A stretch of 64,000 nt of DNA, from assembly GCA_029964075.1 (NCBI GenBank), contig CM057130.1, positions 2,604,001 through 2,668,000 of the forward strand. The letters are read 5' to 3'. The notes under the pieces are model-generated. The model was not told the DNA's origin and searched no databases. It worked only from the letters and a program-made list of their open reading frames with translations. The position numbers and the translations under genes were made by a program. Origin of the DNA: Patiria pectinifera (lineage: Eukaryota; Echinodermata; Asteroidea; Valvatida; Asterinidae). Of this stretch, positions 2,967 to 60,455 are shown piece by piece; position 1 is the stretch's first letter; every line of letters starts with the position of its first letter.

Positions 2967-3255
2967 ATGAAGCCCGGGAAGGGACAGGGTGGATTTTTTT
3001 TTTGGAATTTCCTAATTCGTTCGCATGAATTACTAATTCGTTCCCACGAATTACGAATAGGAATTCGTGCGAACGAATTAGTAATTCGTTCCCACGAATT
3101 AGTAATTCGTGCGAACGAAATAGGAATTCGTGCGAACGAAATAGGAATTCGTGCGAACGAATTAGCAATTCGTGCGAACGAATTACTAATTCGTGCGAAC
3201 GAATTTGGAAATTCCAAAAAAAATTCCACCCTGTCCCTTCCCGGGCTTCATAAGA
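2967..3255. mobile_element. foldback element with 22-bp dyad units
   Basis: Outer inverted arms: ATGAAGCCCGGGAAGGGACA at 2,967 and its reverse complement ending near 3,252, continuing as CAGGGTGGA and an A/T run. Between them lie about eight imperfect units of roughly 22 bp based on AATTCGTGCGAACGAAT. Each unit is itself a near-palindrome (ATTCGT...ACGAAT). Because the units and arms are symmetric, all frames stay open on both strands; these are not genes. No clear target duplication is visible. It sits in an intron of the split gene. Confidence 0.7.
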
Positions 3256-3804
3256 TGTCTATTTTATTTACTTTTTTCAAGTAAAAAAAATTATATATCG
3301 TCTGGTGGCACGACTGAGGAAAAATTCATGTAATTACTGTACATGTAAGAATGATTTTTTTTTTACCACAATTATATGCATGACCAAAAAGGGGTTGGAC
3401 TCCTTGTTTTAGGCGCCAGTATCATTGCTCATATCGTACATTTTGACCACCTGATATCTTTTTTTGAGGGGATGGAAGATGTGCGTTTTTCATTGTTTTT
3501 TTGTGGGTGGTGAGGGGGTTGTTTTATGTGGGTATAGGACTACACTGCGTTATAGAGAAGTTTTTTATTGTTAGGCAAATTAAGACCGAGTTACAATGTA
3601 TGAGGAATTTCTACTGTCTCTCCCCCCCCCAGTGTTTTCGGTCCGCAAAATAACATGTACCTCGTACAGACGAATGAATGCCCCCACAACTACGGAACAA
3701 GAATGTATGTTTTGGTGGGGTGTCTTGAATTTGTATTTTTGTTTTGTTTGATTTTGATGGGGGTATTTTTATTTGTTACCCCCTATTGCTACAGTGAAGC
3801 TTAC
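3256..3804. other. intron-like stretch with repeat debris
   Basis: T- and G-rich sequence. Positions 3,545-3,600 (GCGTTATAGAGAAGTTTTTT, then TTGTTAGGCAA and GACCGAGTTA) match, inverted, the stretch near 19,450-19,515, so both are copies of one dispersed repeat. Confidence 0.4.
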
Positions 3805-3999
3805 CATTGCCTGGATCAGAGATCTTCCTGCTGCCACTAGCAAATGGCAGGTTGCCGGTGCTGCGTCGGCGTTCCCCATTGGTCTGTCCAGGGATCAGTG
3901 TGACGTCCAAGTCCTCCTGACCGTCGATGGAGTCCACCCAGTGCTGGATGCTGTCCCGACTGGAAGAGGTGGACAGCTGGGAACAGGAGAAGGTGGAAT
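3805..3999 (-). CDS. internal exon of the unknown split gene
   Basis: The minus strand has an acceptor (TTTTGGATAG), 195 open nt and a donor CAATG|GTAAGC. The exon starts with the last two bases of a codon (AT) and ends with the first base of another (G). Joined to the exon at 12,268-12,936, which ends with G, it gives GAT (Asp). The peptide reads D-STFSCSQLSTSSSRDSIQHW, then a D/E-rich part and RRRSTGNLPFASGSRKISDP. It is Ser-rich with basic-Ser-Thr sites that look like kinase targets, typical of a disordered cytoplasmic region. No known domain recognised. Confidence 0.55.
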
Positions 4000-4260
4000 C
4001 TATCCAAAACAATGAATTAAAAAGTAAAGAGTCTGAAAGTCAGAATGGGGAACCATCAGAAAAACAAATGCCTTAAAGGCTTGGGCAGTTCCAAAATTAT
4101 TGGAATCGATTCCGATTCCATACCGGAGTCATGAATAAATTTGGAATTGAATCCATTTCTAAATATAAAAAAGCAATATGGAAAGACCTCCATAATTTCA
4201 CTAAAGAACACTGGTCAGTATAATACTTATAAATATACAGGTGTTGTTCTAAGGAGTTAA
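4000..4260. other. intron-like stretch
   Basis: A/T-rich with a short GAATCGATTCCGATTCCAT-type simple repeat at about 4,100-4,130. No gene. Confidence 0.4.
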
Positions 4261-4430
4261 GGCCGGTTCATACTTAGTGCAAACGTGAATGCGAACACGA
4301 ATTTGTGACATTGGGGCAAGTTTTTGTGCTGTGAAGTAGCAAAAAGTTTAACACATTTCAACTCCGGCGAATTTTGCAGTGAATGCTTCTTGACGTCAAA
4401 TTCGCATGGCATTCGCATGTATGAACTGAT
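4261..4430. mobile_element. small inverted-repeat element (MITE)
   Basis: The left end GGTTCATACTTAGTGCAAAC with GTGAATGCGAA is mirrored at the right end (reverse complement begins CAGTTCATACATGCGAATGC). Internal AATTCG/CGAATT words are also inverted. It has no coding capacity. The left end follows TTAA; no matching right-hand duplication is clear. The superfamily is uncertain. Confidence 0.5.
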
Positions 4431-10788: not shown

Positions 10789-11770
10789 TTAACCCTAACG
10801 TACCTAAATCCATCAAAATCCACCCCCCTGTTTCGGGGGATTTGGGCGGATTCAGGATACCTCCATATTGAACAAACTGGGGGATTTTGATGGACTCAGG
10901 ATTCGAAGCCTGGCGGAACTTGCGGATTTTGATGGATTCAGGATACCTCCAATTTGAGCTATTGGGGGACTTTGATGGATTCAGGATCTCAACAGTTTAA
11001 CTCTTTTGCAATGTTTGTGGTCAAGTAAATACTGCTGGCACTAGCCCTTCCAAGTCTGTCACATACTGTACAAACATGTGGTCATGTGCTGGAGGAAAGA
11101 TACAAAAATGCGCGAAAACGTGAGACGCAATGCCCTTTACGCAAAGAGCACCATGTGCATTGCTTATAATTAATTGAGCTACATGTAGGTCATGTGCTGG
11201 AGGAAAGATACATTTAGCTCCATTACTTTGCATTAATTTGTTGCGCGCCTACGAGAGACAACAAAAATGGCGGAGATTTATTGCACAGTGAATGGGTGCG
11301 TGTGGACGCGCTGCCGATCTAGTCTTTTCATTCTATCTATGGTTTACGGGCTGAAACACGCGCTTATGTCTTTCACACAAATTTTGTGCGCAAGATGTAT
11401 TCACTTATGCTGGGGTCACCATGCATTGGTGTATTTTGATGGATCCTATGCAACAACACACATCACAATTTTCATGTGAGCATGGTATCCTGAATCCGCC
11501 AAAATCCACCAGAAATTTAGGTGATGGATTTTGAAGACTCTATGGAAAAACATGCTGTATTTTTTTTTATGCCACCATGGCATCCTGAATCTGCCAGAAT
11601 CCATCAAGACTTTTGCTGGTGGATTCTGGCGGATTCAGGATACCTCCAAAATGTACACTTGGGGATTCTGATGGATTCACTGATACCAGCATTTTTTGCA
11701 TGACAAAATTGGTGGATTTTGGCGGATTCAGGATACTTTCTAGTAAAAGAGCCCCAGGAGTTAGGGTTAA
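10789..11770. mobile_element. TTAA-flanked repeat element with GGATTCAGGAT units
   Basis: It begins TTAACCCTAACGTACC and ends GGAGTTAGGGTTAA, so short inverted termini CCCTAAC/GTTAGGG sit against TTAA on both sides, as expected for piggyBac-type target sites. The ends (10,789-10,999 and 11,485-11,770) are packed with direct and inverted copies of about 20 bp containing TTTTGATGGATTCAGGAT. The middle (11,000-11,480) is unrelated and contains a 30-bp direct repeat (GGTCATGTGCTGGAGGAAAG at 11,082 and 11,189). Shorter relatives lie at 21,705 and 26,292. It encodes no transposase. Confidence 0.6.
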
Positions 11771-11903
11771 AGATCATACCGGTACTAAACACCCCGTAAA
11801 ATTATTCTATCTGGCTTGCTGTCATTTAGAATATCAAGAAACATAAAGTGGTTTCCAACGATCAGTTGATTGACTAATTTTTGGAAAGAAAAAGTAGTGA
11901 AAA

Positions 11904-12028
11904 AAAACAGTGAAAAACCATACACAACTGTTTAAAACATGATTTCGTCCATAGCATTCTTTTGGAAAGAAAGAATGCTATGGACGAAATCATGTTTTAA
12001 AAAGTTGTGTATGGTTTTTCACTGTTTT
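11904..12028. repeat. near-perfect long hairpin
   Basis: The arms of about 58 bp (AAACAGTGAAAAACCATACA... and its complement) are separated by a loop of roughly 8 nt centred near 11,966. I see a single internal mismatch. No terminal duplication is evident. The near-perfect arms imply a recent origin, a maintained function or a cloning/assembly fold-back. It lies 240 bp downstream of an exon donor, inside the intron, and in either transcript orientation would fold into a long stem. Confidence 0.85.
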
Positions 12029-12267
12029 CTTGAAAAGTGTAAATTATCCACTGAGCTGAAACTTCAACAGGTTAGGTTTCAGACACTCGTGACCGTAATT
12101 GGATTCTGAGTGGTGTTATTATTGGCAACAAACAAAATGCATGAAAAGCAAATGATCCTATCTGCCTTTAAAAATAATATAAACGCCTGTATAAATACGT
12201 GAATATAAATTGCATACATTTTCTTATGCAAGTTTGTAAGGTATAAAACGATACATATTGTACTTAC

Positions 12268-17703: not shown

Positions 17704-17839
17704 ATAAACAGTAGGGAGTTGGGTTAATATGTTACGTGCCAGCATCCGGGGTGCGTTACGTGTCCGGATGCTCCGGGTACGGGCGCGTGGGACTTGACTA
17801 AAGGCTATAAACAGTAGGGAGTTAGGGTTAATATGTTAC
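17704..17839. repeat. direct repeat, period 103 bp
   Basis: ATAAACAGTAGGGAGTT(A)GGGTTAATATGTTAC occurs at 17,704 and 17,807. The second copy ends in GGAGTTAGGGTTAA, like the right end of the TTAA element at 10,789-11,770. The preceding 17,540-17,700 has loosely related GGATTT/GGACTC words. Probably the remains of another copy. Confidence 0.5.
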
Positions 17840-18808: not shown

Positions 18809-18895
18809 CAAAACAAAACAAAATAAATACAAAACAAAAAAGACATCAACATGTAAATTCAACAAAACCAAAGCTGAATCTTTAACAAAATAAAA

Positions 18896-18970
18896 AGGAT
18901 AGCTTAGTTGGTAAGAGCAATGGAACGGTTTTATATCCGGAGGTCGCAGGTTCAAGCCCCGCTCCAGTCA
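18896..18970 (+). repeat. tRNA-like sequence (tRNA pseudogene or SINE head)
   Basis: Box A TAGCTTAGTTGG and box B GGTTCAAGCCC are both intact and correctly spaced, and a T6 run (Pol III stop) follows at once. The acceptor stem pairs only partly and the anticodon arm does not form a clean 5-bp stem with a 7-nt loop, so I do not call a working tRNA. Confidence 0.55.
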
Positions 18971-20640: not shown

Positions 20641-21704
20641 GAACTACAGAAAGAACAACAGAAAAACAACAAGGGCGTACGACCAGCTATGGGAACGTAT
20701 CTTTTACTCGATGGGCGAGCAACTTTCTCACTCCATCCACGTCAACATGTGTGACACATTTAAGGACTTGTCCCCGATTCCCGAGTACTTCACTGATTTG
20801 AATGTATTCATTCTGGCAATGTGCCAATTGAACCCTGGGAACTATAACTGTCATCAGGACACTACCCGTAGGTCAGTAGGGATGCTATGGATGCTACAAT
20901 GTCCACGTGCAGTGAACACATGAATCTTCTTGGGAGATGACAATGAAGGAAATGACAAACTGTGGCAGAGGGAAGGGGAGTGAAATTGAAAACCCGTTTG
21001 ACCATAAATGGACTTGCAATCACAGCCATTAGTTGAAAGGGTTGAACTGGGGTCACCTGAGGTACATTGTACGTGTACCAACTGCATGCACTATATGGAT
21101 ATGACATAACTGGGTTAACTGTACAGGTTGCACTGTTAAAGCATACATGTAGCTTTGTAACCACGAAAGCCATACCCGCACAACATAAACTGAATGCACA
21201 CAAACCAAAAGTACATTCACTTTCGTGTAAGAGATTCAAGCACTAATGTTTTAGTTTTCATCTAAACACCTTGTTCAGTTGTACCACTGTGCTCAGTGTG
21301 CTGGTCGAGTTCATTGTCTTGTTACTATAGTGGGCATATCTACAGGTGTATCTGTTCCCAAGAATGAAATAAGAATTACCGGTACTTGTTTTTGGTGATA
21401 TCCCAGAGCAGGCCAGAGATACCCTCTGTCTACCTTGTGCACTGACTTCTTACCACTTGTGAGCTGGGCAGTGCTGTCATGTAGGATTACTCTGTAACGC
21501 CAATGAATGAGCATGATGGGGCAACATTGTAAATCCAGCCCATCGTGACATACACAGATGCAGGAAAAGACCAGTGAAGAGCCCTTGAAAGACTTGAATC
21601 TACCTGTACTGAATAGATTATTGTGGGCTCTAGGAATATTATAGCTCTACTAGTTTGCCTTGTCTTGTCCATCAGTGCAATACCTCGTACACATAGCCAA
21701 TGAG
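20641..21704. other. spacer or intron, no gene
   Basis: No convincing exon. A short donor-flanked stretch near 21,430-21,449 was too small to call. Confidence 0.35.
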
Positions 21705-21900
21705 TTAAACTGTTGAGATCCTGAATCCATCAAAGTCCCCAAACTTCTCAATATGGAGGTATCTTGAATCCATCAAAATCCTGCAGTACTGCTAAGCTTA
21801 CTGACCTGAATCCATCAAAATCCCCTACTTTTTAGGAGGTATCCTGAATCCGCCGAAATCCTCCAAAACAGGGGTGTGGATTTAGGTACGCTAGGGTTAA
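21705..21900. mobile_element. TTAA-flanked element with GGATTCAGGAT units, inverted copy
   Basis: TTAA at both ends. Inside, about five units containing ATCCTGAATCCATCAAAATC, i.e. the reverse complement of the units at 10,789. The right end GGTACGCTAGGGTTAA mirrors the left end of the 10,789 copy, and the left end TTAAACTGTTGAGATCCTGA mirrors position 10,999. So a unit of about 200 bp is the compact form of this family. Confidence 0.6.
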
Positions 21901-22960
21901 TAACATGTTTTTTTTCCTTTCTTATTAGAATTGTTTCCTTTGTGGTTTATATTACAGTTGGATTCTGTAAGAAGCTTGAAAAAAAATATGCTCGCAAAGA
22001 GATTGGGTCAGGAAACTTTGACATACACATCAGCATTATCCGTCATCCCAAACAGTCACGCACAGAACGTTCATCCAACATCTACCAGATATTTTTCTGA
22101 CAGTGTTATATGATTAGTGATCAACTTCCGTCTTCCGTCGACCCATCAACGGCAGCAAGCCCTCAGAGATTCCTGCCCAACTACAACTTAGGCATGATTC
22201 ACTCAGTGCATCATGGGTAATAGACGTGGGAGTTGTGAGTATTCCTAACTAAACTCCGCAGGGCAGTTTTGCCGTAAGCCTCCCGAGTCCTCAAGAATCT
22301 TCCACTGTGCAGATTATTGCACTTCTTTGTTCGTTACCTTTCAAAGTGAAAAGTGTGGGTTCTATATTCTTTGATCCTGCAGAATCCTCCACAACACCCT
22401 GGTGGATAAACCTAGGGTTTTCCTACTTGTAGTGAGACATTTACTGCACATCCATGTTCATGATCACCCACACAGGGAAACATGCTCACCATGAAACACT
22501 GCTTTGAGAAAACACAATATACTGTACATCTACAGACTAGTGTATTCACTTTGATAATTTCCTGTTCACCGGTGGCTTGTACAAATCCTACTTCTTGCAC
22601 TAACCGGGAGCAGGTGGTCGCTTAAATACAACTTCCGGAAGTGTGTCGCTCAACCCTGGGACACACATGGAGCTGGGGACTAATGCTCACGTTGTATTGG
22701 CGTATGCTGTCAGGTGTTGAATTTCTGGACAAATCAATATGGCAGACATCAATGCATACATGCACGCGTAAACAAAATGTAAGAAATGTAATGTAGGAAC
22801 ATTTCAGAAACTAGAATCTGTAGCCAGAAAAATGTCAAGCATAAATTTCTTTTACATGTAGACAACCTTTCAGTTCCGAATATTTCAGACATTCTAGACA
22901 ATCATAATAACGACCCACTTTCGATTGCAAGCTTTTTGGACATACTTCTGTGGGTGACTG
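21901..22960. other. spacer or intron, no gene
   Basis: Nothing recognised. Short open frames only. Confidence 0.35.
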
Positions 22961-23094
22961 CTCTATGTTCCGACACCCCTATGTTCCGACAACCTAGATT
23001 GTGTTACTCCCGGTTAGGGTTAGGGTTAGGGTTAGGGTTAGGAATAGGAATATGTGCAGTCGGAACATACATGTAGGGGTGTCGGAGCATAGAG
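22961..23094. mobile_element. foldback with 16-bp arm units and TTAGGG core
   Basis: The left arm has two tandem units containing ATGTTCCGACACCCCT. The right arm (23,059-23,094) is their inverted copy, with a short ACATGT insertion. In between lies TTAGGG repeated four times exactly, then TTAGGA (23,014-23,043). The telomere-like repeat is thus the core of an inverted-repeat element rather than a lone internal telomere remnant. A second element of the same design lies at 48,104-48,260. Confidence 0.7.
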
Positions 23095-23987
23095 GTGTAA
23101 CCCTTCTGTGAATGAATTACACCGTGTACAGGTAAGAAGCAAATTGACACCTGTAGGCCTATCAAATCAGAAGTTACAGAGAAACAACTGTAACCAAGTC
23201 ATTCGAATGAGGAGGATGTGAAAACAGTTACATGTAGTCTTCTCTGCCCATGTCAACAATCATGAGTCAAATCTTAAAGCTTTTCAACATTTGATTGTAC
23301 CAAGAAACTAAAATGCTTTAAAATTTATTAACTACATGTACAATGTATGTACAAGCTATAGTAAACGGGAAAATCATGGACTTCGCGCATCAGCAGCAGT
23401 TGGTGCTTCGACCATACACTCATTACTAGCACTCTGTGCGAGTGGCACTTTGGTGCTCACATCGTTATGGGAATGTAATTGTATAAGGCATAAAGTTTGT
23501 GCAATGAATTTTATTTTGAATGAGCAGCAGCTGTATGATGCAATAATGTGTTCAAGAATCCGTCCTACATGTAAATATAACCAAGTTCATGGGAACTTGA
23601 GCATGGAGTTCATAGGTGAATCTTGTTAAAGAATATATCTAAGCAAGTGAAGATAAATGTGTACAGTATAGAGACCTTTACAAGTTTTTTCAAGAACTCA
23701 CCATACATGTAGCATGCAACCATTGCTGGTGACAACACGATTTATACTGATGACCAAAAGTGAAACTTCTTCCCAAGGTTTTTCTCTCAGGAAAAAAAAA
23801 CAGCGGCTGTTTGTACAACTCACTCTGAGGGTACCCCATTTAGGGAGAGGGGTGGGGAGGGGGGAGAGGTGACCGGACATCCCCAGACACTGTCCATACC
23901 GCACATGTCCCTATAGACACTCTCTCCGCTTGGATCAGCAGCTTACCCATTGATTCACAATTACTGAGCCTTGGCATTGCTACTTAC
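23095..23987. other. spacer or intron, possible tiny exon
   Basis: No firm gene. On the minus strand 23,702-23,746 has an acceptor (TTTTGGTCATCAG) and donor CATGTATG|GTGAGT around 45 nt that are open in two frames. It could precede the 18,053 exon but is too short to be sure. Confidence 0.3.
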
Positions 23988-36728: not shown

Positions 36729-36810
36729 TGTCGATTGCCTGCACAGATAAAACAACATGATCAATAACACTTAATTTAGGCGATCTAACTAATTAACGTG
36801 TCGTCACCGA

Positions 36811-37870: not shown

Positions 37871-38232
37871 GTTTCACTGACGGCGTGGTAAAATGGAACA
37901 TGTCAAAGTATGCTGATGAAACATTTTGGGAATCAATTCCGCCGTTTGTCCGTGTACATATTAAAAGTAACAATTATGATATTTTGGAACCATTCCCAAA
38001 CATTAATACGGCAATGTTTTTTTCATAGACAAAGGTATATTAATAAAATAATTTTAATTGGTTATTCCAGTGGTAACTCCACCGTCAATGTAAATCTCAT
38101 TTCAAAATGATTCGATGCAAGTGTTGGGCCTGGTACATAAGATAGCCACCCTATACCGTGTTGTAATAATGCTGTAATGTCCTATGCTTGCATCATTTCA
38201 GATTATCCTATTATACACCGCTAGTTACAAAG

Positions 38233-38683
38233 GGGTCCGCCCGATAGTCCAAAGGTTTGATAGTCCGAATATAGGCTGTGTAGTCCGGAGGTTCGGTAGT
38301 CCGAATGCACAAAATTCCCTTTAGCGGGGGCCCGTTAGTCCGAAAATGAAATAAGGTTCGTTAATCCGAACATTTGAAGCAATAGTCCGAAGGTTCAATA
38401 GTCCGAAGGTACATTGGTTCGAAGGTTCGAAAATTCGGTAGTTTGAATTTAGTATAAGGTTAATTAGTCCGAAGGTCCTTTATTCCGAATTGAAAATAAG
38501 GTCCGATAGTCTGAATCGACAATGGTCCGATATTCCAAATCGACAATAAGGTCCTATTGTCAAATTTGGACTATCGGACTTTATTGTCGATTCGGACCAT
38601 CGGACCCTATATCGTATCTTCGGACTATCGAGCCTTCGGACCATTGAACCTTCGGAATAAAGAACCTTCAGACAATCGGGCTG
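38233..38683. mobile_element. foldback with 16-bp units and 7-bp target duplication
   Basis: A 451-bp element flanked by TACAAAG at 38,226-38,232 and 38,684-38,690. The unoccupied paralogous site in copy 4 (63,527-63,533) has a single TACAAAG. The left arm is a string of about 16-bp units (CAATAGTCCGAAGGTT type), the right arm the same units inverted (CTTCGGACTATCGAGCC), with a palindromic centre near 38,560. Termini are roughly GCCCGATAGTCC. It has no coding capacity. Confidence 0.8.
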
Positions 38684-38746
38684 TACAAAGCGTGGACCTG
38701 AACATTAAATGGAATTCAAGTCGAAGTCGATGTTGCCTTTACGTAC

Positions 38747-41594: not shown

Positions 41595-42518
41595 TTACAT
41601 AATTGTTTCGGTATTTTGCTGGTCTTTGTTACCATTAACCGTTTCTCCGAGATCTTGATTCTGAAGCAGACAGCGACAGAACAGTGCTTTCAAGCCCTGC
41701 CTGAAACCATCCAAACGCCACCAGTAGATTATCGGGTTGATAGCTGGAGACAGACAATAAACCAAAACGGCAATCGTGTTGTAGTCATCAAATGCATCGT
41801 CGGAGATTGTGCTCTGATCAGTTTCGATGAAGTATTCTATTATCTGGCCGACGTTGTAAGGGATCCAACATATGAACGATGTCACAAGAATGATGGAGAA
41901 AGTGACCAAAAGCCGACGGGTCTGAAGAACACGAGGGGCGGCCGGTTCTGGGTCATCTGTGCGGACAACTTGGTTTGATGGAACCGTGGCAATACATCTA
42001 TATCTATTGATCTTTCTGAAGACGAAGAAGTACAGCACAGCGGTCACGATCCACACAACGAGTACTAACGGAGATCTAAACCACGCTGATAGGATCAAGC
42101 GAATCTCGTCAGATGCCAACAAGATTACCGGCAAGTGAAGTGCGAGGGAGAAACACCAAAGAAGAAGGCAAACCGATACCAGGCGGCATCGCGTCACCAA
42201 CGCGTCATAGCGAGAGGGCGGCGTGATAGTCAGTGCCAGGTAGCGGTGCACAACCACTGCTAAAATCATCAGCACGGAAACGAATAAACTCGCCTGAAGA
42301 AGAGCAAGAAGAACTCGTGCCCGTATAAGGGCATAGGCAATTAGCATCGCAGCAAACGCCAGGTCGGCCAGGGCGAGATTGAAGACGAAGGCGAAGTACT
42401 TGATGCGGAGATGGCTGGTTGCTGCTAGCACCACTATCACCAGTAGATTCTCCAACACAGCCAGGCCTGAAATCACAGCTCCAGAATACGTGATTATAGT
42501 GCTCAAGGTAGAACTCAT
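41595..42518 (-). CDS. class A GPCR, copy 2, subfamily B
   Basis: A 307-residue seven-helix receptor. It keeps ENLLVIVV (TM1), LALADL (TM2), CWIPYNVG (TM6), NPIIY (TM7) and FCRC after helix 8. TM3 ends HRY instead of NRY/DRY, and there is no cysteine before the second intracellular loop or in extracellular loop 2. The third intracellular loop (CIATVPSNQVVRTDDPEPAA) differs from subfamily A and is shared with copy 3. The ATG at 42,518 follows a conserved acceptor (TTATTTGTGCAG). If the predicted upstream exon is used, an in-frame ATG there would add a few residues (MTLQST). The gene appears intact. Confidence 0.9.
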   Translation of the reverse strand: MSSTLSTIITYSGAVISGLAVLENLLVIVVLAATSHLRIKYFAFVFNLALADLAFAAMLIAYALIRARVLLALLQASLFVSVLMILAVVVHRYLALTITPPSRYDALVTRCRLVSVCLLLWCFSLALHLPVILLASDEIRLILSAWFRSPLVLVVWIVTAVLYFFVFRKINRYRCIATVPSNQVVRTDDPEPAAPRVLQTRRLLVTFSIILVTSFICWIPYNVGQIIEYFIETDQSTISDDAFDDYNTIAVLVYCLSPAINPIIYWWRLDGFRQGLKALFCRCLLQNQDLGETVNGNKDQQNTETIM

Positions 42519-42654
42519 TGTCGATTGCCTGCACAAATAAAACAACACAACACCTTAGCGATCTTACAAATATCAAATTAATTGCGAAAACGGACCTTGT
42601 TTTGCCGGTGAAGCGTTCTGGGGGTACACTCCATCACCGTTCGTACAGTTAGCA

Positions 42655-43480
42655 AACCATTGCCAAAGCCGCTCTATTCGATTTCGATTTCATTCACTAA
42701 TCAATTTCATCCATTCGGCTTCATCATTTCATCATTTCCATCATCATCATTCGGCGATCATTCCATTCATTCCATTCGAGTTCATCATTCCATTCGCAGT
42801 CACATATTCGGCGTTCACCTTTCATTTATCCTTCATTCTTAGTTTTTCGCATTTTGATTTATCTTTTTGGCTCTCGCCTTTGTTTCGTTCTCTTTTGCAC
42901 TTCTATTTATGCAGCGCAGCCATTTTTTATTTTATTTTAGCGCCCGCATTTTGTCCATTCTAAAGGGCAGCGTAGCGTTCAAAACAGAAAAAGCATAAGG
43001 AATAGAATAAAAGTTAACATAAAAATAGACAATTATTATGATCATTATACTTATATTGTATATACAGATATAGTCATGTCATAATTATGATTTTAACAAT
43101 TACTAAGTCGTAATATTATGATTTCATATATGACTTAATAGTCATTATTATATAAGATATACATAAATAATGACTTAATAATAAACTAAGACCAAGACCT
43201 TTTTTTTTTTTTGTCTTATGTCCCCCCTTTAACGCTTCCGTACGGATGGACGCTGCGAACCGAATGAAATACGGAATAGCCGCATGAAATGCGAATGAAA
43301 GCGAAAAAAAAAATAGCATGAATAAGTGCAGCAAAAGGGGCGAAATTGAAATGAAGAATGGCTAAATCAAATGCATGGAATTATGGAATCGCCGAATGGA
43401 ATGATGAAATCGCCGAATGGAATAATGAAATTGATTATGGAATGAAATCGAACTATAGAAGGCGGCTTTGGCGTTCCATA
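42655..43480. mobile_element. foldback, GCCAAAGCCG termini, ATTCCATTCGGC units
   Basis: Left end TGCCAAAGCCGCTCTATTCG with TTCGATTTCATTC; right end GAATGAAATCGAACTATAGA, then GGCGGCTTTGGCGTTCCATA: an inverted pair. Both arms carry short CATTCCATTCGGCGATTTC-like units. The core (42,850-43,330) is AT-rich with TAATGACTTAATA repeats. The right terminus matches that of the larger satellite foldback at 58,950-60,455, so they belong to one family. Confidence 0.65.
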
Positions 43481-45539: not shown

Positions 45540-47610
45540 CAACTTGTTCTTAGCATGAAGTTGGTTGTATACAACAAACATTATAATGATTTCAGCAAAC
45601 TTCGTCACACTCTTCAGATGATTATCAATTTTAATTCATATGATTATCAACCTGCCGCTAAAGGTCCTGACCGCTTTAGTCCTGGGTATGACATTAAACT
45701 GCATCCCGGAGCTCAACTGAGTTCAAAATGGCCCGGTTGATAGCACTCCGAAGGGCCCCTGCCAGGGTTACGGCGAAGCTCTGGGCAGCAGCAGAGTGGA
45801 TTGTTCTGGTGGGTGCTGACGCCTCAACTGTCTACCCAGCCACAGAACATGGATATCTGGCGCGCTTTGTAGATATCACAAGCAGCGGCAGGGATCAACC
45901 AGCTCGAATCAGGAAAGCACGGCGACCATAGCACGGGGCAGCAGCCGTGATAAAGCTGGCCAGCCAGAAGAGGCCACTCCACGGCCCAACGACTCTCCAG
46001 AGTAATGGGGGCTGCACACTGGTCACCCAGCTGTGGACTCTCATCATTGCGCTCCACGTCTCCCCTGTCCCAAGGAGACGGAGTACCAAGGGGCACCACC
46101 CAAACCACCATGAACAGTTATCATAACACCAGGGTTAGAGTCCCTGCTTTTCCTCGCCCCGTAGTACTAGTACCGCATCACGCACGACCAGTTAACCTGC
46201 GACATGATCGTATGACGTCTGCCTCCTCAAGCCCTTCTCTGGACGGTGTCAGACCGATTGTTGGCACTACCTCGGGGCACTTGATATGCGCTCGTCTCTC
46301 CGAATCGCCACCTGGAAGTCCTCACCATGTGCCACCAGGGCTATCCAGAAGCTGTCGCGAGCGAGCTTGTACGATACCTTATTGACATCGGCGGGGTCAC
46401 TGAAACGCGCATTCCAGGTAGTGGATCTGCTTATATCAATGAATACACCATGTACCACGTACTCCGAACCGAAGACAAGGCGTTGTTCTGTTTCTTCAAT
46501 CTAAAGTTGCTCAATTCTTGACTGGCTGGAAGCCAGTCTCCAGTCGTATCCTGCAGCCGCTCAACCATGGATACCGTGCTTGCTCTACGGCTTCTCTCGG
46601 AACTCCATCGCGGATTCATGAGGCTTCTCAATGTGGCCTATATTGACATCAAGGCTGCATTTGACTCCGTAGACAGGAGAGCTATGTGGAAGGCTGTGGT
46701 GGCCTCCGGAACACCCCCTTTCTACTCAACCTTATCAAGGATCTCCACAACGGTACTACATCAAGAGTTAGGCTTGGCAATGACGTGTCTCAAGCCTTTT
46801 CAACATCTTCAGAAGTTCATCAGGGATGTATCCTTGCTCCTACACTCTTCCGTCGCGCCATCGACTGGATCATTGATAGTTGTCAGGGTAATTTAAGAAC
46901 CGGCCGGATTACGCAGATGACGCGGCTCTCTACACAGATAACCCTAACCAGTGGTCATCCAAGCTTCTAAGGTTTGAGGAAGAGGCTGCTACCATGGGTA
47001 TGCATATTTCCTGGGCCAAGACCAAGATCCAAATCACTGGTTCAGGACCATCCCCTGATTCCATCACTGTGGCAGGGCAGGCAGTTGATGCAGTGGAGAA
47101 ATTCACATATCTTGGATGCGACATTCACTCTAATGGATAGTCCTCACAGGATATCCATCGTCGAATTGGTTTGGCTTCTTCAACCATGGGCCAGCTGGAT
47201 CGTGTCTGGAGAAACAAACGCCTCACTTTCCGTACCAAAACCCGGATCTACACCTCCTGTATCATACCGATCCTCTTATATGGATCTGAGACATGGACGC
47301 TGCTCAAGCTCAAGAAGGATGGACGTAGACTTCAAGCTTTCAATATGCGTTGTCAACGCCGCATACTTGGGGTGAGATGGTCTGATTGCATCACCAACGA
47401 GGCCATCTCTCAGAAAACTAGGCTGGAGGATATTCGCTGCATCATAATCACGGCGTCACTCCATCTTCGGGCACATTCGTTGACTCCCTAGCAACACCCC
47501 AGCACACACCGCCCTCAAGCTGGCCGTTGATGCATATACAGGAGTCAAGCCTGATCCTGGTTGATCACGACCACGCGGCCCACCCCGAAATACGTGGGTC
47601 ATGTTCAGGT
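45540..47610 (+). pseudogene. degenerate non-LTR retrotransposon (LINE)
   Basis: Plus-strand fragments in shifting frames. Endonuclease pieces: SLRIATWK at about 46,290 and GGVTETRIPGSGSAYINEYT at about 46,390. Reverse transcriptase: AYIDIKAAFDSVDRRAMWK at about 46,640, SSEVHQGCILAPTLF at about 46,810, DYADDAALYTD at 46,917 (the catalytic YADD), EKFTYLGCDIHSNG to 47,138, then KTRIYTSCIIPILLYGSETW and MRCQRRILGVRWSD near 47,350. Tail RPRG..RNTW at about 47,570. Frameshifts and stops break it in several places, so it is inactive. The exact clade is not certain. It lies in the predicted intron of receptor 2, in the opposite orientation. Confidence 0.85.
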
Positions 47611-47850: not shown

Positions 47851-47919
47851 CGATTATTAACACTAGATTACAAAATGGTGTACCGTATTTTGAACAGGCG
47901 AACATTATACCAGTGTAAT

Positions 47920-48060: not shown

Positions 48061-48103
48061 AACTACCACAACCCCTATCCCGCCCTGCGCGAGACGCATT
48101 GAC

Positions 48104-48260
48104 GTGGGTGTCTACCCGATGTTCCCCAATACCGATGTTCCCCAATACCGATGTTCCCCGGCCCCGAAATCCTTAGGACTAGGGTTAGGAGTAGAGTTAG
48201 GGTTATAGGGTAAGGATTTCGCGGAACATCGGTATTGGGGAGCATATAGGTATTCACCCA
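48104..48260. mobile_element. foldback with 16-bp arm units and TTAGGG-like core
   Basis: The left arm has tandem CGATGTTCCCCAATAC units (two full, one partial). The right arm has one inverted unit, and the outer TGGGTG.CTACC/GGTATTCACCCA also pairs. The core 48,171-48,217 holds TAGGGTTAGG and TTAGGGTTATAGGG. Same design as 22,961-23,094, including the ATGTTCC unit start. Confidence 0.65.
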
Positions 48261-48544
48261 TTGACGTGCATAAAGGGGTTGTATATTTTTTTTACTAGTT
48301 AACCCCAGATTTCCGTTAACAAAACCTGCAATCTGTCTACTACATAATTATGGCTGTTGTTTGTTTCACTTCAGAATGTTGAATAACAAACAACTAACAA
48401 GTAGACAACCATGGTGAAAAGTGTCCTAAACTTCACAATCGCAGCAAAAGAACAAAACTTAGTTTCGGCAAGTTGCTGAAACGAAACAGCCAATAATGTT
48501 TTAGGGGTTACAAGCAATACATAACACTGTTACTGCGTCATTTC
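48261..48544. other. intron-like spacer
   Basis: From about 48,500 it becomes similar to 54,930-54,960 in copy 3. No gene. Confidence 0.4.
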
Positions 48545-49093: not shown

Positions 49094-52000
49094 GTGGTTG
49101 CTAGTGTAACACAGGGCATATAGGGTATAAACTAACCAACCCTATAGAGTCGTGGTTACTATACTGATGTGAAATGGGATTTAGACAAAATGTCTCCACG
49201 TAGGTAGCCAGAGCGGACAGAAACAGTTTAATACATGTAGAAGTGACTCTGAAGAAATAAAACTACTGACAAGGATAATCGGGTCTATGAGGTTTATTGG
49301 CAACACAGACTAATATCTCTTGACAGAGAGTTGGTTCTGGTGGAAGTTCAGAAGAGAGAGACACACACATTGAAGACTTTGGGGGAAGATGGGCTGATTA
49401 AATACAGTAATGAAGCATACGGAGTGTGTGTAAGTCCATTAAACATGTGACAGTAAGTTTTAGGAATAGGATGTGGTTTAAGTTCCACGACCAAGCTCAG
49501 TGTAACCTCACAAAATTGAGATAGAGTGTCTATGGGAACTGTCTGTGTGGACCACAAAGCAATTTGAAAGAATCATAAAGATATCAACAAGGGAAGCTAT
49601 AGATATTCGAACTTAGTGGAAGAGAATGTAAATAAAAATAATTGAGTGATTGAAAGAGCTATTAAATCTAGACTTATGTTTCAAGCGCGGGTATAGAGCT
49701 TAAATAATGACACGAGTTTGACACAGATTATAACTTTATGGAAGCAGCCCTGTTTCTGAGAATGATAACCTTTGTACAGCGCCCCCTGTTGGCTAAATGG
49801 TGCAAGATAATGAAGGTGTATATAGGTTGCAGACCAGTAAATGGGTCCGAAATTGCCTGCGCCGGCCAAATCACGATTTGCATGCCCTCAAAATCTTCAG
49901 TATTTAAGCATGCTGTGGGCCATGAACTTGAGGGTTTGTAAAAAATATGGGTGGAAGCCGTACACAGCACTGTGAGCTTGTAGTTCCGTTCAATTTGGAT
50001 GAAATTGGGGCCCTTAAAGCGCTTGATTTTGCAATGGAGTGTAGGCATCGTTTTTCAACATGGCGATGGGCTTCACGACTATTTTCAGGGGTGATCATCT
50101 TCGGATGGAAATTTTTCCTAAAAGTCATCAGTTTACCACCCGAAAATTGAAATGAAAATGAAAGATGATGAAATAAGCTTTAATTTGATGTGTGTCTCGA
50201 ACACCTTGGAGAGTTGTGAGTATTTTTCCCGAAATTCTAAAGTGTGAGCATTTACCATTGGGGTCTAGGAAGTTTATTTACTGATCTGCTACCATATATT
50301 GTTACAGCTTACACTAGCATAAGGCTTGCCCCGAATCACGTGATATGCATGTACAGACAGTGAAAGGGGTGCGGGGGGGAACACTCGAAAGGTTGGGGGA
50401 AACAAAATTTGACGCTTGGAGGTGCTGTTCGTAAATGGGTATTATAGTCGAAGTTATGTGCAAAAAAGCGTTTTAAGATCCTTCGGCTGTCCGTACTGCT
50501 AGACATACATAAACTTAACATACATAAGACACAAGTTTACCCATTCCTAATGATCGAGAGCCAGTCACGTGGCCAGTTTGAAATGGTTGAACAAAACTAT
50601 GCAATAATGTTTTAACAGCCCACATACGATTATTAAATTCCTTTGTATGTCAGAAAAAAAGGAGAATAGAAATAGCACGGGAAGACAATGGGGTGAACGT
50701 CCCCCTGCCTCAAATCACATGTTGTGTTCACGTGACGCTAATTTTCTCCTGAAAAAAATGCAAACCGATAGATTTTCAATTGTATGTTTATCACTGGAAA
50801 TATTGTTATACATGTACATATACATGTATATATAAAAAAAAAATGTAAGTTACTTGCATGTTTTTAGTGTTTTATGATAAACAAAATGAGGCGGAGGAGT
50901 CGGGGCTGCAGAGGCGAGACTAGGGCTAAGCTGCTAGGGCACTTGGGGTGCACCAATTTTGCAAGGTGGCACTGAGGGCAACGTACAAATTGTGTCTGTG
51001 CAATTCAAGTCTTTAAATGGAGGGGGAGGACACCCGGAAAGACACCGCTCGGGGCACGTACCTCCGCTGGGGGAGGGCCCGTATAGTCACGCCACCAAGC
51101 GGCTGTTTACCCCGGCCGCATGCGCATGCACACCGTTGGCATATACGATTCTAATTTAGAATGTTGTCGAGGACAGTGTCTTCTTTGCAATCGTGTGGAG
51201 ATTACCCAATAGGCATACTAACTGTGCCTAGGGACTACGAACAATTCGGGGGCCTACGAACAATTCGGGGGCCAACGAAAATACCGCAGTGTGCCATAAA
51301 AGACATAGGCCTACCCACACCACAACCACGTGCACAGAAAAGTTTTTTTTTTAAATGCTAGGGTCTCTCTCACAATTTTCGATATCACCAACTGACACTG
51401 TACAGCAGGCCCCACGTATACAATTTACGTGTAAAGTCTGTCGTTCTGGGCTTCGATCGGTTGGGGCGGGGGGACATGTCGTTCTCTGAATAAATAATTC
51501 TCTGAATAAATAATTGTAGCCTACATTTGATTCTGTAGCTCAGAATAGCTGATGCAATGACTCAAAACTCAAAAATGATGGTTAAATGAGGATCTTTAGC
51601 TAAGACCTTGTCACATTTCCTCAGAACGCACCCAGAGCGTCTAGAATCCATTTTTTTCGCCGGGCCCTTCCACTTCGTTTAGGCTTCGTACTCGAATTAG
51701 CTCTCATCAGGATACACATGTTTGTACCCTCACTTCTGAGAAGCGTTTGACGCCTTTGGTTCCAACAGGCTTTCAGAGCTAGGACCTATACCAATTTGGC
51801 CTGGCTTGATTTATACAGTGCTTTGTACGCTAAATTTGGTGCCGGTGGCTAGGGCGAAGTAGGGCCTATGGTGCCTAGGGCCTACGAAACACTTACTCCG
51901 GGCCTTTGTGGAACATCCCTACTACAATAAGCAAACAAGAAACAAAGATACCACAAACGCCTAATAATAGATCGTATCGAATACCCCCATATTGGCATAT

Positions 52001-53481: not shown

Positions 53482-54405
53482 TTACATAATGGTTTCGGTA
53501 TTTTGCTGGTTTTCGTTACCATCAACCGTTTCTCCGAGATCTTGATTCTGAAGCAGACAGCGACAGAACAGTGCTTTCAAGCCCTGCCTGAAACCATCCA
53601 AACGCCACCAGTAGATTAGCGGGTTGATAGCTGGAGACAAACAATAAACCAAAGCGGCAATCGAGTTGTAGTAATTCAATGTTTCTTTGGAGATTGTGCT
53701 CTGACCAGTTTTGATGAAATACTCCATTATCTGGCCGATGTTGTAAGGGGTCCAGCAAATGAATGATGTTACAAGAATGATGGAGAAAGTGACCAAAAGC
53801 CGACGGGTCTGAAGAAGACGAGGGGCGGCCGGTTCTGTGTCATCGGTGCGGACAACTTGGTTTGATGGAATCGTGGCAATACATGTATATCTATTGATCT
53901 TTCTGAAGACGAAGAAGTACAGCACAGCGGTCGCGATCCACACAGCGAGTACTAACGGAGGTCTAAACCACGCTGATAGAATCAAGCGAACCTCGTCAGA
54001 TGCCACCAAGATTATCGGCAAGTGAAGTGCGAGGGAGAGACACCAAAGGAGGAGGCAAACCACTACCAGGCGGCATCGCGTCACCAACGCGTCATAGCGA
54101 GAGGGCGGCGTGATAGTCAGTGCCAGGTAACGGTGCACAGCCACTGCTAAAATCATCAGCTCGGAAACGAACAAAAACGCCTGAAGAAGGGCAAGAAGAA
54201 CTCGTGCCCGGTGTAGGGAAAAGGCAATTAGCATCGCAACAAACGCCAGGTCGGCCAGGGCGAGATTGAAGACGAAGGTGAAGTACTTGATGCGGAGATG
54301 GCTGGTTGCTGCTAGCACCACTATCACCAGCAGATTCTCCAACACAGCCAGGCCTGAAATCACAGCTCCAGAATACGTGATTATAGTGCTCAAGGTAGAA
54401 GCCAT
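53482..54405 (-). CDS. class A GPCR, copy 3, subfamily B
   Basis: A 307-residue receptor, close to copy 2: same HRY at the end of TM3, same CIATIPSNQVVRTDDTEPAA third loop, same tail QQNTETIM. Differences include CWTP instead of CWIP in TM6, an acidic residue in TM3 (FVSELMIL) and EYFIKTG rather than EYFIET(D/G) in the last extracellular loop. As in the others, no TM3 or loop-2 cysteine. The start ATG at 54,405 follows the acceptor TTTATTTTTGCAG. An in-frame ATG in the upstream exon would add MTLLST. Intact. Confidence 0.9.
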   Translation of the reverse strand: MASTLSTIITYSGAVISGLAVLENLLVIVVLAATSHLRIKYFTFVFNLALADLAFVAMLIAFSLHRARVLLALLQAFLFVSELMILAVAVHRYLALTITPPSRYDALVTRCRLVVVCLLLWCLSLALHLPIILVASDEVRLILSAWFRPPLVLAVWIATAVLYFFVFRKINRYTCIATIPSNQVVRTDDTEPAAPRLLQTRRLLVTFSIILVTSFICWTPYNIGQIMEYFIKTGQSTISKETLNYYNSIAALVYCLSPAINPLIYWWRLDGFRQGLKALFCRCLLQNQDLGETVDGNENQQNTETIM

Positions 54406-54415
54406 CGTTGATAAC

Positions 54416-55032
54416 CTGCAAAAATAAAACAAGGTCAACAACACCTTAACGGTCTTACAAAAATAAAATTAATGGCCTGTAAAACGGAACTTGTTTTGCC
54501 GGTGAACCCATTGACTATACCGGCAAAGCTTTTCCTATGGACAAAATTATAATAACAAACTCATATCCTGATCAGTTATCCAAGTAGAATCTCTATCAGG
54601 GATGTGAATCTCAAGTTCAAGCGATCAGATACAGGTACACATGGATACAGCATCTCAGGGTGTCGGGTTGGTTAACGGTACTTTCCTCACCGCTGTGACC
54701 TGGGTTCGAGTCCCACCTGGGCCAATGTGGATTGGGTTTTCAGTCCCTACCCGATTCCGTGGGTTTTCCTAAGAATATTGTTCTGGTGTTTTCCTCCCAC
54801 CCTATAAATCTGTAATTTCTTCTCATTATCCTCTCTCTACATGTTCCTACAGTGTCCAAGGCGCTTTCTCAGGAATCCTTGGTTTCATGACCAGAAATAA
54901 TTGATAAAATAATAATATGGGGCAACACGCGTCACCGTATAACAATGTTGTTGCGTCATTTCGAATTGTCCTATAATATACACTGCGAAGCGTAGACCTG
55001 AGCAATGAATGAAATAAATCTTCCGTACTTAC
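54416..55032 (-). other. predicted 5' intron of receptor 3 (617 bp)
   Basis: Acceptor TTTTGCAG|G and donor GACACT|GTAAGT. It contains a SINE (about 54,660-54,900). Without it about 390 bp remain. Confidence 0.5.
54660..54900 (+). repeat. tRNA-derived SINE
   Basis: A tRNA-like head with box B GGGTTCGAGTCCC at 54,709, a body with GTGGGTTTTCCT and TTTTCCTCCCACCC, and a tail with CAAGGCGCTTTCTCAGGAA that resembles the tail of the repeat at 20,560. Absent from copy 2, so inserted after the duplication or lost there. Confidence 0.6.
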
Positions 55033-55979: not shown

Positions 55980-55987
55980 CGAACTCC

Positions 55988-56352: not shown

Positions 56353-56360
56353 CGAACTCC

Positions 56361-57318: not shown

Positions 57319-57632
57319 CAGTGGCGCACCCAAGGGGGGAGCCTCGGGGGCTTGAGCCCCCCCCCCCCAGAGGTTTAAAAAAAAAGTACTTTTTTTAGTC
57401 CCACGATTTGACATTGGTGATATGTTTGTGGCCTATTTTCGAGTAGTACGGTATAATAGGGGTGTTAGTGGCGCCACCAACGTCAAAAAAGTGCCCCCCC
57501 CCCCCAAGAAAAAAACCCCACTTTTTTACTGCTGCCAAAATTTTTGGCATAATTTATTGGAAAAGTTTTAACTTCTACAAAATTTGAATAAAAATTGTGA
57601 GCCCCCCAAGCCAAATCTTGGTTGCGCCACTG
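57319..57632. mobile_element. hAT-like MITE (CAGTGGCG family)
   Basis: Termini CAGTGGCGCACCCAAG and TTGGTTGCGCCACTG; a perfect 8-bp duplication AAACTAGT at 57,311-57,318 and 57,633-57,640. The A1 segment near 31,160 reads CTTGCGAATCTAGTTACC without the insert. The 314-bp body has C10-C11 runs. Confidence 0.85.
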
Positions 57633-58234
57633 AAACTAGTTACCCATTTTGAAAAGTTTAAAATACTCACTTTACTCGAACCGATTTGGCAGAAAGTTCA
57701 AAGGAATATGAACGGGTATATTTTTACAGCCTAACATTATAATCTAGAAAATCGCAGGAATGAAAGGATTTTGTACTGTTCGTAAATCTACTCCTAAAAT
57801 CTGGAATTAAAGAAAGTTGAAAAGTTACGAAAGACAGGCTAAGGACTTTACTCACGAGTCGGCCATATTGAATTGAAAGCGAGGTAAACTCGTCATTTTT
57901 GGAACTTGCAAATGAAAACAATAAATTAAAGTCTATTACAAATTAATATGCTCAGATGAATATTAATTTAACATTTGTGATTAAACTTATCCATACTGCT
58001 TTAAGCCCCATTTGAAGAAAAAAAATTAAAGTGATATTTAATGAACCAAGGAGATATTAAATCGAAATTCACTTTTGAGATAATAATTAATAAACACTCA
58101 CCTAAACGAACAAGACCGCTTGTTTATAAAATTGAGCTTATTTTACAGTCCGCCGCAGCATCACAAAAGGATTTCATTGTTCAAAAGTGACCAGGCAGAC
58201 AAAACTCGCGCGCGTCGCCAAAATGCACCAAATA

Positions 58235-58370
58235 AGCCTCTGTACTGATGACGTCACACTTTGTTTACGTGTGTGCTTTCCTATGGTGCTCACTGGACCG
58301 TGCCCCCCCCCCCCGGCTCCAAAGGAAAGTGCACGTGTAAACAAAATGTGACGTCATCAGTACAGAGGCT
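58235..58370. mobile_element. 136-bp hairpin element with TA target
   Basis: Arms AGCCTCTGTACTGATGACGT (continuing CACACTTTGTTTAC) and their mirror, around a C12 run, flanked by TA at 58,233 and 58,371. The A1 segment near 33,800 lacks it (GCACCAATTTATTTATTT). TA targets fit the Tc1/mariner group. Both arms contain TGACGTCA. Confidence 0.7.
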
Positions 58371-58949
58371 TATTGATTTAGTAAAAAAAAACAATCCAAG
58401 TAAATGCCAGAATTCACTTACAATTCTTCAAAGAAACAAAATTTTAAAATTCACAATACATGTATAATAAACGCCTTTTTAGCTCAATAAAAAGCTAAAA
58501 ACTACGAAAACTTGCACATTAACGACTCCCCTTAATTATGGTAACGCAACCTCGACTTAATAAATATTAATGACTGATGAGTTAATACAAGATAAATGAC
58601 ATTTCTCGATGACGTCGTCAGCTGTACAGACAGAAATAAACTCTGGTAATTTACCCAAAAGTGTCGTTCAACTCATGTTAGATCCACATTTACAATCATT
58701 ACCACAAAAAATCAAAGCTTGCATGACCAACTCACGTACTTCCGAGTTTATAACGAATTAAAGTTGAAAAGCGCAGTGAAACTCGTTTGCGTCACAGAAT
58801 ATATATAGGCCTAATCGTGTTTTGGATTATGTGGTTGGATAATATTATAATAATTGTTTATCATAACTTGCACTTGGAAATTTCTGTGTAATATCTGACT
58901 TTCAGGCCTATCAGAAAAGCAGAAAAAAAAGGAAACGTCTAAAACGATG
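58371..58949. other. spacer; end of segmental duplication
   Basis: The homology with A1 ends near 58,640 (after GTCGTCAGCTGTACAGACA). The remainder shows no gene. Confidence 0.4.
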
Positions 58950-60455
58950 GAATGGTTTCACTCAATTCGTCAGATTCACAATTCCATTCGGCAAACTCAT
59001 CATATTTTTGCTTTGAATTCCTCGTTCTTTTCTGCGAATTCCTTTTTCTAGCTAGTTCAGCACTCTACTCGGCAAATGTATCAATCCATGCGTCAATTCT
59101 ATCGGCTCATTCTGTAAATTCATAATTTCATTCTGCAAATACAGATTTCATCATTTTTTTCCCGCCGAATTCATCCTGATGAATTCGCCGAATAAATCGC
59201 CGAATTTAATATGGAATTCGCCGAATGAAATGGTGTACTCGCCGAAAAAACATGAGGATTTTGCGGAATGAAATGATGGAAATGGCAAAATTTGCAGAAA
59301 CTGGCGAATTTGCAGAACGGATTGATAAAAATTGCCAAATGAAATCATTATTTCGCCAAAAGGACTAATGAATTCGCCGACAGGAGTGATGAATTCCCCG
59401 AATAGAATGATGAATTCGCCGAATGGAATGAGTTGCCCGAATGTATTTGCCGAATTGAATGATTACTTTGCCGAATGGAATGATGAGTTTGCCGAATTGA
59501 ATGATGATTTTGCCGAATGGAATTATTAGTTTGCCGAATGGAATGATGAGTTTGCCGAATGGAATGATGAGTTTGCCGAATGGAATGATGAGTTTGCCGA
59601 ATGGAATGATGAGTTTGCCGAATTGAATGATGATTTTGCCGAATAGAATTATTAGTTTGCCGAATGGAATGATGAGTTTGCCGAATGGAATGATCAGTTT
59701 GCCGAATGGACTGATGAGTTTGCCGAATGGACTGATGATTTTGCCGAATGGAATTATTAGTTTGCTGAATGGAATGATGAGTTTGCCGAATGGAATGATG
59801 AGTTTGCCGAATGTAATTATTAGTTTGCCGAATGGAATGGTGAGCTTGCCGAATGGACAGATGAGTTTGCCGATAGGAATGATGTGTTTGCCGAATGGAA
59901 TTATTAGTTTGCCGAATGGAATGATGAGTTTGCCGATAGGAATGATGTGTTTGCCAAATGGAATTATTAGTTTGCCGAATCGAATGATGAGCTTGCCGAA
60001 TTGAATGATGAGTTTGCCGAATGGAATGATGAGTTTGCCGAATGGAATGATGAGTTTGCCGAATGGAATGATGAGTTTGCCGAATGGACTGATGAGTTTG
60101 CCGAATGGAATGATGAGTTTGCCGAATGGAATGATGAGTTTGCCGAATGGAATGATGAGTTTGCCGAATGGAATTATTAGTTTGCCGAATGAAATGATGA
60201 GTTTGCCTAATGAACTGATGAGTGTGCCGAATGGAATGATGAGTTTGCCGAATGGAATGATTTGTTTGCCGAATGGAATGATTAGTTTGCCGAATGGACA
60301 GATGAGTTTGCCGATAGGAATGATGTGTTTGCCAAATGGAATTATTAGTTTGCCGAATGGAATGATGAGTTTGCCGAATGGAATGAGTCTGACGAATGGA
60401 ATGAGTCTGACAGTGGAGTGATATGAACTATTGAAGGCAGCTTTGGCGTGCCATA
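58950..60455. mobile_element. foldback carrying a 21-bp satellite
   Basis: The left part has the unit inverted (ATTCCATTCGGCAAACTCAT near 58,980, preceded by TTCGTCAGATTC). From about 59,430 to 60,390 about 45 tandem units of 21 bp follow, containing TTTGCCGAATGGAATGATG. The right end has CTGACGAATGGAATGAGTC and GGCAGCTTTGGCGTGCCATA. The last word matches the right terminus of the 42,655-43,480 foldback. Because 21 is a multiple of 3, reading frames stay open on both strands (391 codons on the minus strand); these are by-products. Confidence 0.75.

Follow-up and report, generated by a model that had tools for sequence, protein, structure and literature searches.

A 64,000-nucleotide stretch of the genome of the starfish Patiria pectinifera (contig CM057130.1, C2:2,604,001–2,668,000 in an assembly of 613.5 Mb and 1020 contigs), below called the window, contains several loci whose inverted arms are built of short tandem units. 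Three of these, designated 22,961, 38,233 and 48,104 after their positions, are probably non-autonomous cut-and-paste foldback transposons of the Mutator class (Mutator-like elements, MULE), a reading to which we give a probability of about 0.7; it includes a transposase that would dock on the units, turnover of whole units in each arm separately, and a set of elements at TTAA sites that stands apart. All three have short, partly asymmetric ends followed by arms of ~16-bp units, and 7–10 bp target duplications, seen in genome copies of two families (38,233 and 48,104) and in the window copy of the third (22,961). Foldback arms made of short tandem units are familiar from the sea urchin TU elements. 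What had been a visual pattern thus becomes a group of transposon families recognisable by their ends, their target duplications and copies scattered through the genome.

Inverted arms and dispersed copies

Inverted arms of short units are present at all six loci outside the TTAA set (2,967, 22,961, 38,233, 42,655, 48,104 and 58,950) that a preliminary description of the window had listed as sharing one architecture. The inverted-repeat scan (150-bp half-windows) gave scores of 169 near 3,100, 77 near 38,550, 49 near 48,200 and 43 near 23,050, against a top score of 29 among 3000 pairs of halves subjected to plain base shuffling. Single-strand DNA folds compared with dinucleotide shuffles yielded z values of −25.6 for 2,967, −11.7 for 38,233, −6.2 for 48,104 and −7.1 for 22,961. 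Six further window sites scored above 40, one of them (11,575) within a TTAA element, so a hairpin alone is nothing unusual in this region and the named loci are distinguished by their short unit. Of seven independent arrays of period 14–26, five overlap a locus with inverted repeats, compared with a mean of 1.2 at random (P 0.002), a test biased by the fact that some loci were partly defined by those arrays.

Unit words were counted by a Hamming scan inside and outside each locus. The 22,961 unit occurs 4 times inside, with mismatches from 0 upward, and 21 times outside, with 3–5 mismatches of 16; the counts are 5 and 26 for the 48,104 unit (inside from 0; outside 4–5 mismatches of 16, or 3–5 over both sister families) and 20 and 15 for the 38,233 unit (inside from 1; outside 4–5 of 16). 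The 21-bp unit of 42,655 and 58,950 gave 59 and 1, the 2,967 unit 18 and 1, the 18 being nine palindromic units counted on both strands, and the TTAA-family core 19 and 8 (outside 6–8 mismatches of 24). Left arm compared with left arm and right with right, 22,961 and 48,104 resemble each other to a degree that in each case 1 of 1000 random segments attains; for the 38,233 arms no clear likeness to the remaining 16-bp arms emerges (at best, 16 and 40 of 1000 random segments score as high). Because 22,961 and 48,104 resemble each other, 42,655 and 58,950 belong to one family and the 38,233 arms lack clear kin, the window holds about four independent kinds besides the TTAA set. The shared architecture thus stands, with one plan for the 16-bp loci, but the units are not all unrelated as had been supposed.

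A genome search covering 2,967, 22,961, 38,233 and 48,104, with 40 candidates scored per family, returned at least 178, 76, 252 and 92 matching pieces, respectively (40 of 523, 1087, 727 and 1014 candidates); pieces are not copies, because the arms match themselves, and neither are candidates. Many matches start or end at element borders, namely at query position 10 for 38,233, 7–8 for 48,104, 157 for 22,961, and 12 and 298 for 2,967; others are internal. Each of the four is a dispersed family. The view of the preliminary description, that these are foldback-type mobile elements with unit-built arms, is borne out for the tested loci by the dispersed copies, the empty site and the target duplications. 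Four unit patterns had no match in viral contigs, and one scan of genome contigs also returned none (viral and prokaryotic collections).

Flanking repeats were taken as the longest exact repeat with both borders free by 4 bases and compared with 4000 random controls. They measure 10 bp at 48,104 (P 0.0015), 8 bp at 22,961 (P 0.004), 7 bp at 38,233 (P 0.012) and, more weakly, 6 bp at 2,967 (P 0.03) and 4 bp at 42,655 (P 0.27); at 58,950 the window shows none with the borders freed to the same extent. Copies were read for ends and duplications in the 38,233 and 48,104 families; one copy of the 22,961 family was met at locus L082.

The 38,233 family and its empty site

The 38,233 element (38,233–38,683, plus strand) consists almost entirely of 16- and 26-bp units and lies between exact 7-bp repeats TACAAAG (38,226–38,232, plus strand, and 38,684–38,690). 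The window contains receptor genes within tandem duplicated blocks (Pfam 7tm_1 in the one scanned), so that paralogues can serve as empty sites. In the paralogue alignment, positions 63,515–63,536 (plus strand) run uninterrupted as CTAGT TACAAAGCG TAGACC, where the 38,233 site has CTAGT TACAAAG, the element, TACAAAGCG and TGGACC. At the fixed offset of the family the window copy has 3 of 9 flank matches; its duplication may originally have been AGTTACAAA, with 8 bp lost later at the right edge, which fits the empty site.

We read 28 loci of this family, including the window copy; an end pair was found in 19 and none in 9. The filter accepted four-letter ends with at most one mismatch from GGCC or GTCC on one side and from TACA on the other, and doubtful pairs in L007 and L020 were kept among the 19. 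The left end is exactly GGGGGCC in 8 of 19 copies, the right end, read inward, exactly GGTTACA in 13 of 19, and both continue with GCCCGATAGTCC; the short motifs outside the inverted arms hence differ between the two ends. At the offset implied by these ends, at least 7 of 9 flank bases agree in 5 of 19 copies compared with none of 336 mismatched pairs; the five represent four independent cases, as L002 and L005 go back to a single insertion. Two more copies, L014 and L019, show by eye 8-bp repeats one base off that offset and stand outside the count. Ten copies examined for units contain 7–15 on one strand and 4–17 on the other; the commonest spacing is 16 bp, and several copies also show steps of 26 bp.

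The 22,961 and 48,104 families and their telomere-type loop

The 22,961 element (22,953–23,102) has two 16-bp units in each arm and is flanked by the 8-bp target duplication CTTCTGTG (22,945–22,952, plus strand, and 23,103–23,110); many genome matches begin at query positions 1–7 and stop at 157. The 48,104 element (48,107–48,258, plus strand) has three units in one arm and two in the other, and lies between copies of the 10-bp repeat CATTGACGTG (48,097–48,106, plus strand, and 48,259–48,268). The 16-bp length given for both in the preliminary description is correct, but they do not carry one identical unit: judged by their letters, they are sister families with related yet different units. 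For the 22,961 family, the window copy alone provides a target duplication.

Both ends of the 48,104 family were found in 27 of 30 loci read (at most 6 mismatches of 21 letters). These 27 copies are 129–167 bp long, many near 145 and 161, and have 3+2 units in 11 cases, 3+3 in 13 and other numbers in 3. Their flanks match at 8 or more of 9 bases in 13 of 27 copies (4 of 702 mismatched pairs) and at 7 or more of 8 bases in 10 of 27 (0 of 702). Two pairs, L036/L040 and L052/L053, look like duplicate copies within the 27, and the flank match of L034 is inflated because this copy inserted inside TTAGGG repeats.

The sister families have a TTAGGG-type loop in common. In the window it occupies 23,012–23,042 (plus strand) of the 22,961 element as (GGTTAG)5, by array and word count, and lies near 48,173–48,212 in the 48,104 element. 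All 27 two-ended copies of the 48,104 family carry 6–16 TTAGGG-type words on one strand and 0 on the other. The word GTTAGGGTTA occurs 9 times in the window against 0.12 expected, in both loops, in ends of the TTAA type and at one other place (46,939). A search of the open-licence literature by title and start of abstract found no precedent for telomere-repeat miniature inverted-repeat transposable elements (absence from print is not claimed).

We speculate, while considering it rather doubtful as a whole, that 22,961 and 48,104 are MULE-type hairpins with a fixed telomere tract at the tip. Such a transposon vehicle could seed interstitial (TTAGGG)n sites genome-wide, the tract being kept for a function of the tip and the arm unit words acting as docking sites that co-evolve with the transposase and split into sister families. 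Candidate functions of the tract would be G-quadruplex formation, recruitment of telomere proteins or healing of the opened hairpin. With the telomere-type loop, interstitial telomeric repeats gain a possible origin that can be tested.

A MULE transposase element with 16-bp arms

The genome contains 30 matches to PF10551 (MULE), with 63 of 63 candidates scored. Arrays of about six copies of a 16-bp unit occur at three of these loci, L059 and L063 (TCGTACCTTGGACAAC) and L072 (TCGTACCCAGGTCGTT); at L072 no second arm was found within 7.5 kb. The L059 element (C4:15,726,121–15,730,316; 4,196 bp) encloses a 605-amino-acid open reading frame (ORF) between inverted 16-bp arrays. Its arms align over 138 bp at 85%, with a score of 172 against a top of 41 among 500 controls, and its 5′ side carries a 19-bp array besides the 16-bp arrays present at both ends.

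The same GGTAACAGGTCATCTC starts the C3, C4 and C14 copies of this coding element, and the other end reads GCTTTCG-AGTCAACTCGTACC on C3 and C4 and GTAGGCT before AGTCAACTCG on C14. One end of the C4 element reads GGTAACA, comparable to the GGTTACA of the 38,233 family (13 of 19) and of 22,961. The C4 element follows the same plan as the 38,233 family. The C14 copy has a 9-bp repeat, GGCTAGTCA, that overlaps sequence belonging to the element on C3 and C4. At L093:478–3054, seemingly inside the C14 coding copy, lies a further MULE-like stretch, diverged and with a 16-bp array of its own (CTCGTACCCGGGACGA type).

The C4 protein scores 56.4 bits for the MULE domain and 21.6 bits for a PHD finger, for which the Pfam cut-off is 24. 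Three of 11 ORFs scanned have such a PHD match below the cut-off (L089, 21.6; L062, 21.6; L068, 23.2 bits). In the arm-bearing MULE (L089) the PHD finger occurs without FLYWCH, which was matched in L088 alone (21.4 bits, cut-off 23.6).

One and the same genome carries foldback arms of short units and a MULE transposase between arms built alike, a combination rarely obtainable from non-coding copies alone. For the common transposase that the preliminary description asked about, this MULE element, similar in the build of its arms, is a candidate; that a MULE moves the window elements is our inference. Single weak end matches (7 mismatches of 24) are present within 1.5 kb at five of the 30 MULE loci, and L082, also among the 30, has a complete 22,961-family copy beside it.

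Comparison with known systems

Foldbacks with unit-built arms are already known, Tm1 being closest in plan and Rehavkus in domain make-up. Tm1 is a Mutator/foldback family of root-knot nematodes with a MULE transposase (PMC3169594). As described in its Tm1 passages, differing 7-bp end motifs are followed by arms of 13–15 bp tandem units, the number of units is unequal between arms, and 45 of 53 elements have 8–10 bp duplications (PMC3169594). The 16-bp window families share these traits: inverted arms with unequal units, 8–10 bp duplications and asymmetric end motifs. They differ in their unit and end words and in a unit length of 16 bp; further, FLYWCH accompanies the Tm1 transposase, its place being taken by a weak PHD finger in the arm-bearing MULE of this genome, and a telomere-type loop is not described in the Tm1 passages of that paper. 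The combination of FLYWCH and MULE domains that marks Phantom is likewise absent from the arm-bearing MULE (L089).

Rehavkus, in the sections of PMC6446971 and PMC10218199 that describe it, combines a MULE-type transposase with PHD, a minisatellite at the terminal inverted repeat or in inverted termini, and 9-bp duplications. The C4 element has its minisatellite counterpart in the 16-bp arrays at both ends; the comparison is one of descriptions, the PHD match here lies under the Pfam cut-off, and the unit of the beetle element, at 164 bp, is far longer (PMC6446971, PMC10218199). Should the PHD-bearing MULE prove to be Rehavkus-like, the range of hosts stated in PMC6446971 (insects, annelids) may have to be extended.

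Galileo has long arms with tandem repeats that bind transposase and differ in number between arms (PMC3688188, PMC3573991), but its repeats are ~210 bp and its THAP transposase belongs to the P superfamily. Tetris is a non-autonomous foldback with unit arrays in its arms and 8–10 bp duplications (PMC4079207), and its arm units expand into satellites, a course of which 58,950 may be an example; unlike the window families, it has 220-bp units, and no transposase is reported for it. Within the literature checked, the elements that appear to be new are these families themselves, a coding MULE of the same genome with arm units of equal length, and the telomere-type loop.

Proposed mechanism and alternatives

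We propose that a MULE transposase supplied by other genomic elements most likely recognises the ends of the 16-bp families, uses the units as repeated binding sites and would insert the element with 8–10 bp duplications. Additional units would mean additional binding sites, as has been shown for Galileo (PMC3688188). The copies suggest that arms grow and shrink by whole units, each independently, via slippage or unequal exchange. Independent whole-unit turnover would lead to sister families with different unit words, and one arm may become a small satellite. Arms are unbalanced at 48,104 (3 versus 2 in the window copy), 38,233 (12 versus 8 matches) and 58,950 (45 units versus few); such lopsidedness, with the whole-unit length classes, shows growth of arms, perhaps of satellites. 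No new arm-building mechanism is needed.

Several observations weigh against assigning the 16-bp families to MULEs. Flank matches fall below 8 of 9 in 14 of 27 copies of the 48,104 family and below 7 of 9 in 14 of 19 of the 38,233 family, whose end counts, including the 13 of 19, arise partly by construction, since the filter presupposes near-TACA. None of the 30 MULE loci has the window-family ends as its own within 1.5 kb, although a 4-kb element would extend beyond that distance. The MULE element and the window families differ in their unit words, and the end match comprises seven letters: GGTWACA occurs at 17 places in 128,000 window positions, a count that makes the match suggestive and not proof. 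For the coding copies, the script found no duplication on C4 and none is clear on C3. Finally, the transposase search was one for MULEs, with hAT, P and piggyBac transposases outside it.

The alternative that survives best, although we regard it as unlikely, is that the 16-bp families are foldbacks from a different superfamily that makes 8-bp duplications, either hAT or the P/Galileo type, and that the 16-bp-armed MULE is convergent. Galileo, a P-type element, has repeat-bearing arms with THAP binding sites (PMC3688188), 8-bp repeats occur at several copies, and the missing window ends at the MULE loci fit as well. However, 9- and 10-bp repeats occur too, and the MULE elements of this very genome have an equal unit length and a very similar end.

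A single process building the unit arms of all families, the TTAA set included, was suggested by the preliminary description and seems very improbable. It could draw on the many unit words in one window and on the biased overlap of arrays with inverted repeats (5 of 7), but target sites and ends differ between the sets. The TTAA set sits at TTAA, hence no single mechanism covers all, and gain and loss of whole units per arm, as described for Tm1, Galileo and Tetris, is the simplest account and suffices.

Immobility of the loci, as local satellites or as hairpins that slippage formed in place, was the refuting scenario named in the preliminary description for the satellite case and has next to no probability left: the mostly one-sided 45-unit array of 58,950 without flank repeat is what it explains, whereas dispersed copies in four families, the empty site of 38,233 and the target duplications exclude it for the tested loci, so that an in-place origin is refuted for 22,961, 38,233 and 48,104, unlikely for 2,967 and partly standing for 58,950.

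Elements with 21-bp units

The 2,967 and 42,655/58,950 elements have the same build with 21-bp units; the MULE class is assigned to the 16-bp families only. The 2,967 element (2,966–3,252, borders corresponding to query positions 12 to 298 in many genome matches) has an outer inverted repeat of ~45 bp followed by nine palindromic units (3,013–3,205, by array and unit scan). These measure 21 bp, replacing the 22 bp first given, and each is a palindrome in itself.

The 42,655 element (42,658–43,474) has 21-bp units near both ends and an AT-rich middle; 42,662–42,732 pairs with 43,396–43,472 (E 4.8e-11), and the paralogue near 54,506 showed no empty site for it. The 58,950 element (58,948–60,457) shares with it the right end (P 0.00025) and the unit, and by these letters the two form one family. 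It is lopsided: its right arm holds an array of 45 units of 21 bp (59,446–60,404), and few units are recognisable on the left, where 58,958–59,003 pairs with many units of the array. Within 59,446–60,404 a variant-unit block seems by eye to be repeated 441 bp (21 units) apart, at 59,845 and 60,286, as if blocks had been duplicated.

Translation of the 21-bp array gave one Pfam match, lpg1496_N, among the 20 of 85 stop-to-stop window ORFs scanned, and we take it as a repeat artefact. A coding reading of the array was rejected: variation is spread 29/19/15 over the three positions, and the array leaves two frames open. Helical phasing of the unit lengths was also considered and dropped for too few numbers.

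TTAA elements

The TTAA elements form a piggyBac-like set of their own. CCCTA-type ends are a piggyBac trait. Two copies have TTAA on both flanks, a piggyBac type of insertion: 10,793–11,766, which contains 24-bp cores, and the shorter 26,287–26,537; a partial copy lies at 21,691–21,905 (minus strand, by sequence match and core scan). The tandem units of about 20 bp ascribed to them are in fact 24-bp cores, mostly 42–44 bp apart, and at 10,790 their orientation is mixed. The locus listed as 21,705 corresponds to the partial copy. At 17,704–17,839, two stretches end in GGAGTT(G/A)GGGTTAA, resembling the right ends of the TTAA family.

Other features of the window

ARAGORN detected no tRNA gene in the window, and one marginal Rfam tRNA match lies at 18,893–18,970. 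A 19-bp tandem array, CCTACGAACAATTCGG, at 51,231–51,279 has no inverted partner in the scan. One frame of 46,900–46,960, DYADDAALYTDNPN, resembles by eye a reverse transcriptase of long interspersed nuclear elements; nearby scanned ORFs had no Pfam match at E 0.01.

Near-perfect hairpins without tandem units occupy 11,901–12,031 and 35,461–35,624. Another hairpin of this kind, at 58,231–58,374, carries TGACGTCA in both arms and is absent at the paralogous position 33,801, with no clear target duplication. About 1.08 kb at 36,805–37,884 is absent in the tandem paralogue near 63,190; this segment has 20-bp inverted ends (36,811–36,830 and 37,851–37,870) and, nested inside, an inverted repeat of 175 bp (37,176–37,756).

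Four related minus-strand ORFs of 319–328 amino acids lie at 35,811–36,770, 41,595–42,554, 53,482–54,468 and 62,174–63,160. The one included in the Pfam scan is a rhodopsin-type receptor.

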